Origin: Planctomycetota bacterium
GTDB taxonomy: Bacteria > Planctomycetota > Planctomycetia > Pirellulales > Lacipirellulaceae
Assembly (NCBI GenBank): GCA_029781135.1
Contig: JAKOXH010000026.1
Coordinates: forward strand, 1 to 64,000
DNA length: 64,000 bases
Direction of reading: 5' to 3'
The notes under the pieces were generated by a model. The model had not been told where the DNA came from. It ran no database searches and saw nothing but the letters and a program-made list of their open reading frames with translations. The translations under genes were made by a program, and so were the position numbers. This document shows, piece by piece, positions 54,404-56,525 of this stretch (position 1 is its first letter; every line of letters starts with the position of its first letter).

Positions 54404-54732
54404 GCGAGGGAATCATAGAGGGCTGTTTTGTTCTGGTTCCAACGCGCGACTATACTAACGGTCATGAGTACGACGACATTCCATTTCGAATCGTTCGAGG
54501 CCTTTTCGCCGTTTAGCGACGTGGGGCCGTATCGGGCGGCTGCTCATTCCTGGTCGCTCTCACATTAGTTGTCGTTGAAATCTCGGAATTCTGGCGCGAA
54601 GTCGATCGGCAGATGGCGGATTGAAAGCATTTTGCACGATCGCTAGCTTGCATCGGGAAGGCTATTAGTCGTTTGCTCATCAAGGATTAAGCAAATTCTA
54701 GATCGCGAGGCTTATGCGGCCGAAAACTCGCC
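54404..54732. other. Gene-free leader to the candidate RNA
   Basis: About 330 bases with no convincing gene. A 34-codon frame starting ATG 54463 (MSTTTFHFESFEAF) is open but has no ribosome site and is not counted. No other structure seen before the promoter-like element. Confidence 0.4.
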
Positions 54733-54762
54733 TTGACCCGTTGGGCCGCTGTGCCGTATCTT
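54733..54762 (+). promoter_or_regulatory. Promoter-like element for the structured RNA
   Basis: TTGACC at 54733-54738 and TATCTT at 54757-54762 with an 18-base spacer, a fair sigma-70-type promoter, about 7 bases before the first hairpin of the candidate RNA. Confidence 0.5.
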
Positions 54763-54768
54763 CCCGCA

Positions 54769-55141
54769 CCACGACGAGGGACTGACAAGTGGGGCCCGTG
54801 GGGCAAGTCGTCGTGGGAAGCTTCAAGAAACACCAGCGGCCGGCGCCTTGGCTCAACATTGGCACCTAAGCCCGATTTGGCGGCCGGAAGGCCAACAGAC
54901 CACGTGGACGGGTCTGCCCCCCGTTTAGGGATGGCGTGACCCCGCAGCGGTTGGCGTTGGCACGGAGGCCCGCCATCCGCTACGATACACTCCCCGACGC
55001 GCGGCAATCGCTTCCTCCCCCCTAAAGCGATCCTGCTGCGGCGTCCGCCCGCACGCAAGCGTTATTGCGTCCAATCGCTCCCGGAAAGGTGACGACGTCC
55101 TTTGCCCCCCTGGGACGTGTGCTTTTCTGGGAGCTTTTTTT
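54769..55141 (+). ncRNA. Candidate structured RNA, about 370 nt, class unknown
   Basis: Between a promoter-like element and a strong terminator lies a run of nested complementary stretches: CACGACGA (54773) with TCGTCGTG, extended outward by CTTCCC/GGGAAG and GGCCGCTG/CAGCGGCC; GGCCGGAAGGCC; CAGACC/GGTCTG; GGATGGC/GCCATCC. No credible protein is encoded. I looked for RNase P (GAGGAAAGTCC), tmRNA (T-arm and tag) and SRP (GGAAGCAGCC) hallmarks and found none on either strand. Size fits a housekeeping RNA or a lineage-specific one. A 6S-like RNA cannot be ruled out. Confidence 0.5.
55077..55141 (+). terminator. Strong intrinsic terminator
   Basis: GCTCCCGGAAAG pairs with CTTTTCTGGGAGC, with a second inner stem ACGTCC/GGACGT, and is followed directly by seven T. 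Ends the candidate RNA transcript; it is about 290 bases before kdsD. Confidence 0.85.
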
Positions 55142-55364
55142 GCGCTCGCAGTGTTTCAAGGCACATTCTTCGGTTGATTTAGGCATTCTACGCTGCTTGG
55201 GTGCAGCGCATTCTGAGTTGTCGACACGAAGCAAACAGTGTCTTAGTACGCAATCCTGCGCAATCGGTTCGCTTTGGAATCGCGTTGTGGCGAACTCCGA
55301 ATCTCACTAGAATGCTACCCCGTTTCAAAGATTGAACGGTTATTCGAATGTCCGTTCATGTCAG

Positions 55365-55391
55365 TAGCCGCGGACCTACGGTCCGCCAGGA
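55365..55391. repeat. TAGCCGCGGACC hairpin repeat
   Basis: TAGCCGCGGACCTACGGTCC, continuing GCCAGGA, forms a hairpin; the same design occurs inside carB at 52807-52830. A second hairpin, CGATGCGGAGCATCG, follows at 55397-55411, so the short leader of kdsD is highly structured. Confidence 0.75.
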
Positions 55392-55433
55392 CCCGGCGAT
55401 GCGGAGCATCGCGGTTAAAGGAAGACGCTTTTG

Positions 55434-56525
55434 ATGAGCAAGGAAGCTCCCCGGCGCCGCAGTGCGCCAAGAAAGACAATCACCACACTCACGCCGGAAG
55501 AGCAATTGCGGGCGGCCCGCGAGATCGTCCGCCGCGAAGCGGCCGGCGTTTGGAAGGTTTCGTACCGGCTGAACTCCTCGTTCTGCGAAGCGATTCGGCT
55601 GCTGTTCGCTTGCCGCGGCAGCGCGATCATCACCGGCATGGGCAAGGCCGGCCTCATTGGTCAGAAAATTGCGGCCACATTGTCGTCGACCGGCACGCCG
55701 GCCCACTTTTTACACCCGGCCGAAGCATTTCATGGTGATCTGGGACGCGTGCATGCGCAGGATGTCGTCGTCATGCTCACGCAAAGCGGCGAGACGGCGG
55801 AAGTGACGCAGCTCTTGCCATCGCTGCGCGAATTTGGTGTGCCGCTGATTGCGATCACGTCCGCACGCACCAGTAGCGTCGGCCGGGCGGCGAGTGTGGT
55901 CATCGAGCTGGGCGAGCTAGAGGAAGTTTGTTCGCTCGGCCTCGCACCGAGCACCAGCACCACGGCGATGCTCGCGGTCGGCGATGCGCTCGCGCTCGTG
56001 CTCAGCAAGATGCGGAACTTTCAGGCCGATGATTTCGCCCGCTTCCACCCCGGCGGCGCGCTGGGCCGCAAGCTAGGCAAAGTCGACGACATCATGCGGC
56101 CGCTGGCCGATTGCCGGTGCGCAAGCGAATCGCTTTCCGTGCGGGAAGTGATCGTGAAGTGTACGAAACCCGGCCGGCGTAGCGGGGCGATCATGCTCAC
56201 CGACAAAGCCGGGCGGCTCACCGGCCTATTTACCGATAGCGACTTGGCGCGCCTATTTGAGAAGCGTGACGAGTCAGCGCTCGATCGGCCGATGTGTACG
56301 GTTATGATCAATCATCCCACCACCGTGCTCAGCGGCACGCGGGTTGGTGATGCCGTTGCGCTCCTTGCACAGCGGAAGTTCAGCGAACTTCCGGTCGTCG
56401 ATAAGAAGGGCCGACCGATTGGACTCGTGGACGTGACCGACGTATTGGGAATGAAGGAAGAAGCGGAGGCCGAAACGGCGAAGAAGCCGTCGCAAAACAA
56501 CACGCCGCCGAAAAAAGTGGCGTGA
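55434..56525 (+). CDS. kdsD: D-arabinose-5-phosphate isomerase (KdsD/KpsF)
   Basis: A 363-residue enzyme converting ribulose 5-phosphate to arabinose 5-phosphate for Kdo synthesis. The SIS domain is seen in GMGKAGLIGQKIAATLSSTG, then HGDLGRVHAQDVVVMLTQSGETAE, and FARFHPGGALGRKL, the KpsF signature. Two CBS domains follow (IMRPLADCR; FSELPVVDKKGRPIGLVDV). AAAGGAAG lies about 10 bases before the ATG. The N-terminal 20 and C-terminal 20 residues are basic and low in complexity. Cluster with kdsC and the Lpt-like gene. Confidence 0.93.
   Translation: MSKEAPRRRSAPRKTITTLTPEEQLRAAREIVRREAAGVWKVSYRLNSSFCEAIRLLFACRGSAIITGMGKAGLIGQKIAATLSSTGTPAHFLHPAEAFHGDLGRVHAQDVVVMLTQSGETAEVTQLLPSLREFGVPLIAITSARTSSVGRAASVVIELGELEEVCSLGLAPSTSTTAMLAVGDALALVLSKMRNFQADDFARFHPGGALGRKLGKVDDIMRPLADCRCASESLSVREVIVKCTKPGRRSGAIMLTDKAGRLTGLFTDSDLARLFEKRDESALDRPMCTVMINHPTTVLSGTRVGDAVALLAQRKFSELPVVDKKGRPIGLVDVTDVLGMKEEAEAETAKKPSQNNTPPKKVA

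Follow-up and report, generated by a model that had tools for sequence, protein, structure and literature searches.

The RNA described here is probably a trans-acting regulatory sRNA of the Planctomycetia, likely one that binds CsrA and either sequesters it or uses it as a partner. Its gene lies in a 64,000-nt window (positions 1 to 64,000 of the forward strand of contig JAKOXH010000026.1, assembly GCA_029781135.1) from a Planctomycetota bacterium (Planctomycetia; Pirellulales; Lacipirellulaceae). The assignment to a CsrA system follows from repeated copies of a hairpin of the kind that CsrA recognizes. We determined the boundaries of the gene by conservation, found covarying structure and motif enrichment within it, and established that a canonical CsrA is present and that Hfq is not detected in 30 relatives.

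A conserved RNA gene with its own promoter and terminator

The gene falls in a protein-gene-free interval (54404-55433), with a kdsD-like gene on one side and, on the other, a hypothetical gene that lies downstream of carB. The original prediction had been of a structured, non-coding transcript of ~370 nt, marked by a promoter-like TTGACC-18-TATCTT, a series of nested complementary segments, and a terminator with seven T. The features that we assign to the region are as follows.

54733-54762, forward strand: promoter, with -35 TTGACC (54733-54738), 18 nt, -10 TATCTT (54757-54762), then GC-rich CCCGC
54769-55141, forward strand: non-coding RNA of ~370 nt, with a predicted start based on the -10 box (blastn conservation, covarying helices, no conserved ORF)
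54768-54816, forward strand: 5' hairpin domain with closing stem CCACGACGA/TCGTCGTGG (z = -2.2), found in genus mates and variable elsewhere
54882-54893, forward strand: small hairpin GGCC-GGAA-GGCC whose loop contains GGA, a weak candidate CsrA site (from sequence)
54898-54908, forward strand: conserved element GACCACGTGGA (CACGTGG block)
54910-54942, forward strand: helix H2 (GGGUC...GACCC), which forms the base of the central module and folds in the window
54943-54984, forward strand: helix H3 (GCAGCGG...CCGCUACG) with the CsrA-type hairpin at its tip (folding and covariation)
54959-54970, forward strand: predicted CsrA/RsmA-type hairpin GGC-ACGGAG-GCC with ANGGAN hexaloop
54996-55045, forward strand: variable hairpin with C-rich loop CTTCCTCCCCCCT at 55011-55023 (z = -2.4)
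55069-55141, forward strand: universal 3' module, comprising single-stranded UCCAAUC, the long hairpin GCUCCCGGAAAGG...CUUUUCUGGGAGC with loop UCCUUUGCCCCCCU at 55098-55111, and the T7 terminator (z = -5.5)
55398-55424, forward strand: kdsD leader, with GGA hairpin GATGCGGAGCATC (55398-55410) and Shine-Dalgarno sequence AAAGGAAG (55417-55424), a candidate CsrA target outside the RNA
55434-56525, forward strand: kdsD-like arabinose-5-phosphate isomerase gene (SIS and CBS domains), the downstream neighbor in most genomes of the source organism's own family only

Of 68 homologous loci collected without fixing any base, 65 have the sequence TTGACC-N17-TATTCTCC upstream of the RNA, never more than once per locus; its distance to the 3' module in this set ranged from 48 to 415 nt. 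Since the counterpart of the window promoter is conserved in nearly all of these relatives, the promoter-like element is not a chance match. At the other end of the gene, the hairpin GCTCCCGGAAAGG...CTTTTCTGGGAGC at 55077-55134, followed by T7 at 55135-55141, proved to be the strong terminator that had been proposed: its folding z-score was -5.5, and none of 200 shuffles was equally stable. A simple terminator scan misses it because the loop is longer than 8 nt. The expectation that no protein is encoded was likewise upheld, as 54404-55433 holds no convincing protein gene, only short ORFs, and no ORF is conserved over the RNA, those overlapping it in 18 relatives varying in strand, length, and position. 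We conclude that the locus is a real non-coding RNA gene with its own promoter and terminator, with boundaries supported by conservation, and we infer that it is transcribed in cells.

A variable 5' part and a near-invariant 3' module

Folding of the whole 374 nt was weakly significant (z = -1.8), whereas the segments 54907-54990 (z = -3.4) and 55068-55137 (z = -5.5) scored far better. Folding energy over the full length being weak evidence, we relied on module-wise folding and covariation. The nested complementary segments that had been seen in the sequence therefore hold up only weakly as one continuous fold but well as single modules, which are strong and covary in relatives.

The RNA follows a two-part plan, in which a 5' part of varying length carrying ANGGAN hairpins precedes a near-invariant terminator hairpin with a C-rich loop. 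In most members, the central module consists of a helix GGNUCNGCA/UGCGGANC, a helix CGAAGCG/CGCUUCG, and an ANGGAN-loop hairpin at the tip. Double-sided changes were observed at 8 and 9 pairs of this module in two separate alignments, with covariation scores of 0.248 (vs. 0.146 +/- 0.012) and 0.254 (vs. 0.143 +/- 0.014) that were reached by 0 of 500 shuffles each. When the pairing partners were shifted by 1-3 columns, pairing fell from 94% to 32-51%. For H2, a family-level alignment showed double-sided compensatory changes at 5 of 7 pairs. The helices thus covary among related genomes, and the structured RNA of ~370 nt, presumably transcribed as such, is supported by both conservation and covariation.

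Across relatives, the 3' module comprises UCCAAUC, a hairpin GCUCCCGGAA...UUCCGGGGGC (the latter being CUUUUCUGGGAGC in the window) with the tip GUCCUYYGCCCCCCUGGGAC, and a T-run. Its invariance in alignment A1 is partly forced by the search pattern, but blastn-derived loci show the same invariance independently. At the position of the variable hairpin (54996-55045), several relatives have a different hairpin that also carries a C-rich loop. An intramolecular partner that would place the C-rich loop in a pseudoknot was considered and rejected, as candidate pairings did not exceed the chance level (5.9 vs. 6.1). The repeated ANGGA hairpins and the invariant C-rich terminator module had both escaped the original prediction, and both point to regulation rather than to a housekeeping role.

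CsrA-type hairpins and the csrA genes of the host

In 44 non-redundant RNAs we counted 43 hairpins with an ANGGAN hexaloop, whereas dinucleotide shuffles gave 1.36 +/- 1.18 (at most 5 in any of 200). The 43 are not independent events, being partly homologous between species. The next-best loop triplet was counted 7 times, and there were 2 ANGGAN hairpins on the antisense strand and 3 in the upstream flank. Of the 44 RNAs, 33 contain one or two hexaloop hairpins of the strict form and 11 contain none; extra ANGGAN hairpins occur at other positions in ~10 RNAs. The second pair of the stem was intact in 82 of 82 cases (GC 72, AT 8, GT 2), against at most 79 in shuffles. The window RNA has one canonical ANGGAN hexaloop and weaker GGA sites. 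SELEX with CsrA yielded the consensus RUACARGGAUGU, and 51 of the 55 ligands had GGA within a hairpin loop (PMC7652899); CsrA is reported to be conserved in Planctomycetes and to recognize A(N)GGA when it lies in a hairpin (PMC10729762). The ANGGAN loop of the RNA agrees with both the consensus and this rule.

The corresponding protein is amply present. All 148 genomes of the source organism's order carry csrA, with 7 copies in the source genome itself, and in a phylum-wide sample csrA was found in 19 of 19 class members (4-17 copies) and in 39 of 99 genomes outside the class (1-3 copies). The gene is strongly multiplied across the class (1 to 17 per genome), in contrast to 0 to 3 copies in other planctomycete classes. 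The encoded CsrA is canonical (MLVLSRKKNESIIIND...VRLGVEAPKEVPVHR, with EAPKEVPVHR). Every RNA-bearing genome that was examined for csrA contains it. Because csrA also occurs in class members with no detected RNA, the two are not strictly linked.

A candidate target lies next to the RNA gene. Roughly half of the family members that we checked have the Shine-Dalgarno sequence of kdsD inside a hairpin of the GTC-AAGGAA-GAC type, and in many relatives (loci L005, L007, L008, L010, L012-L016, and L018) it sits in a conserved GTC-A(A/C)GGA(A/T)-GAC hairpin ~10 nt before the ATG; the window differs in that its GGA hairpin (55398-55410) lies just upstream of the Shine-Dalgarno sequence. Enclosure of the Shine-Dalgarno sequence is the arrangement expected of an mRNA repressed by CsrA, and from its leader sequence we regard kdsD, a gene of lipopolysaccharide (LPS) sugar synthesis, as a candidate CsrA-repressed gene.

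We propose the following mechanism. A sigma70-type promoter of its own would drive transcription of the RNA, which would end at its own terminator, and the 5' part of the RNA would offer one to three (sometimes no) ANGGAN hexaloop hairpins, through which one or more CsrA dimers most likely bind. Binding could then lower the amount of free CsrA in the manner of CsrB, RsmZ, and McaS, drawing it off mRNAs whose Shine-Dalgarno sequence lies in a similar hairpin, kdsD being one candidate. Alternatively, CsrA may serve as the RNA-binding partner in cells that lack Hfq, with RNA and CsrA joining at target mRNAs. A counterpoint to the action of a CsrA sponge is that the single canonical site of the window RNA is few for a classic sponge. 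Moreover, since homologues of ~75-120 nt lacking the hairpins keep the 3' module, titration of CsrA is not the whole story or the universal function, and since those minimal homologues retain that module alone, the module must be functional in its own right. A further-reaching version, in which the RNA is the central sRNA of a CsrA riboregulation network, with the ANGGA hairpins docking CsrA as a matchmaker and the C-rich terminator loop acting as the pairing seed, is speculative and on balance unlikely.

Distribution and genomic neighborhood

By blastn, the element was present in 37 of 40 related genomes. All 21 genomes sampled from the same order, and 30 of 41 from the rest of the class, gave a match to a covariance model of the 3' module; the class-level screen was run with strict filters, and some absences may represent diverged copies. 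The same model gave no match in ~330 genomes of other planctomycete classes. In covariance-model searches, the RNA was single copy in nearly all genomes; one genome (G518) had four matches to the RNA model (L227-L230), all others one. Among the carriers is a laboratory planctomycete, Blastopirellula marina DSM 3645 (L096). Homologues range in length from ~75 to 450 nt, the minimal ones (~75-120 nt) consisting of the 3' C-rich module without the hairpins.

An exact scan for the 3' pattern across bacterial and archaeal genomes returned at least 117 stretches, and among the matches listed nearly all titles name planctomycetes. Also among the matches listed were metagenome-assembled genome records titled 'Candidatus Kuenenia stuttgartiensis' (L064, L082, L088, L104, and L133); these titles are probably wrong, as the covariance model matched no sampled genome outside the class of the source organism. 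The pattern fixes bases and so biases conservation counts at loci found with it; the promoter and hairpin statistics given above accordingly rest on loci from blastn or covariance-model searches. A mobile or phage element was rejected as an explanation, given that no viral contig matched the exact 3' pattern and that the RNA is single copy in nearly all genomes.

Adjacent genes are less constant. In the window, kdsD, a KdsC-like phosphatase gene, and a gene for an LptA/LptD_N-domain protein follow one another between 55434 and 60963, which suggests an LPS gene cluster in the source planctomycete. Other families of the order have unrelated genes beside the RNA, most of them convergent, and even within the genus one locus (L037) has a neighbor other than kdsD. 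At L052 (G026), a convergent gene on the opposite strand, 12 nt downstream, resembles by eye that for ADP-glucose pyrophosphorylase (GlgC), the classic CsrA target in Escherichia coli.

Alternative explanations

That the locus might be a divergent housekeeping RNA, as had also been suggested, found no support. The element matched no Rfam family at the gathering level, including the models for RNase P, 6S, SRP, and tmRNA, in keeping with a new structured RNA. At the relaxed level there was nothing credible, the sole match being the plant microRNA MIR8008, a chance match whose 22.5 bits fall short of the 66-bit cut-off. RNase P, tmRNA, and SRP RNA, whose hallmarks had been reported as missing from the element, have their true genes elsewhere in the genome, on C36 (275.6 bits), C25 (179.9 bits), and C70 (50.5 bits), respectively. 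This leaves chiefly 6S RNA, which the Rfam model did not detect in the source genome. A single-copy RNA that is nearly universal in its order and has a promoter with a GC-rich discriminator could conceivably fill that gap, but the element matches no Rfam 6S model even at relaxed thresholds, has no long 5'-3' closing helix with a central bulge, and swings in length between ~75 and 450 nt among homologues; we consider a 6S identity very improbable. The least probable reading is that the RNA is a cis-acting leader or attenuator of kdsD. In most genomes of the family kdsD does follow the RNA on the same strand, at a distance of ~100-470 nt, and its Shine-Dalgarno sequence is in a CsrA-type hairpin. 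However, a strong, constitutive-looking terminator separates the two, the same-genus locus L037 has another neighbor, and in the order's other families an unrelated, usually convergent gene comes next. As the neighboring genes change and the RNA holds no fixed position upstream of kdsD, it is not a kdsD leader.

A more serious, if still doubtful, possibility is a base-pairing sRNA of the RepG type, in which the C-rich loop UCCUYYGCCCCCCU would be a universal seed for G-rich Shine-Dalgarno regions or G-repeats of mRNAs and the ANGGA hairpins would be a lineage-specific addition, possibly a handle for CsrA as a chaperone. The C-rich-loop module is the one part that every homologue retains, even at ~75 nt; an additional C-rich-loop hairpin occurs in many relatives; RepG itself pairs via a C/U-rich terminator loop (PMC8295292); and Hfq went undetected in the 30 relatives. 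Against this, we found no excess of G-rich target sites complementary to the loop in the source genome (13, compared with 16 for a reversed-pattern control), and the internal loop partner stood at chance level as well. The RNA might instead be an sRNA or scaffold for another protein that binds ANGGA-loop hairpins. CsrA binding to the loops is a prediction from sequence, and the UCCAAUCGC and CCCCCC elements, being invariant, hint at a partner other than CsrA, whether protein or RNA. The loop nevertheless conforms closely to the CsrA rule, and no RNA-bearing genome examined lacks csrA, making this reading quite improbable. Our preferred explanation thus remains a regulatory sRNA that likely binds CsrA.

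Relation to known RNAs and significance

Like CsrB/CsrC and RsmX/Y/Z (PMC7652899), the planctomycete RNA is an independent RNA gene, with hairpin loops that would present A(N)GGA to CsrA. With the CsrB/RsmZ class it shares above-chance GGA hairpin loops, a host that has csrA, its own promoter and terminator, and the lack of an ORF. It differs in having no sequence or Rfam match to these RNAs (including the covariance models for CsrB, CsrC, RsmX, RsmY, and RsmZ), one to three canonical sites where they have many, and no known upstream two-component regulator, as well as in its added invariant C-rich terminator module and its restriction to the Planctomycetia. McaS of E. coli, which requires Hfq, has a similar combination of few GGA sites and a separate, potentially base-pairing part. 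It is a base-pairing sRNA reported to be a CsrA antagonist (PMC7652899). There is no homology between McaS and the planctomycete RNA, and Hfq was not found in the planctomycete relatives. RepG of Helicobacter pylori is ~87 nt long and is not known to have CsrA-type hairpins. The C-rich loop of its terminator hairpin is a conserved functional part (PMC8295292), as it appears to be here, but the two RNAs are not homologous and no G-repeat target was found for the planctomycete RNA. SR1 of Bacillus subtilis, although not homologous either, provides a precedent for CsrA-aided pairing, in that CsrA promotes pairing of the sRNA with its target (Muller 2019, as quoted in PMC9029176).

The searchable literature yielded no description of this RNA and no described CsrA-antagonizing RNA in Planctomycetes. 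The Rhodopirellula-1 motif, a candidate RNA reported from Planctomycetes and also from Proteobacteria, classed as probably cis-regulatory and with no Rfam entry listed (Weinberg 2010, PMC2864571), is a possible match, although its description (Proteobacteria, cis-regulatory) agrees poorly with the RNA gene described here. The RNA is therefore probably previously uncatalogued: CsrA-binding sRNAs, among which its predicted binding would place it, are a known kind, and the invariant C-rich terminator module is its distinguishing feature. A conserved gene outside Rfam thereby gains an explanation, and the invariant C-rich terminator hairpin emerges as an additional conserved element. If the arrangement of CsrA as matchmaker and a C-rich loop as seed is true, it would be one undescribed for any known sRNA family. 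For the Planctomycetia, this structured RNA, found across the class as a single copy and equipped with CsrA-type hairpins, is a concrete candidate partner for the multiplied csrA genes.
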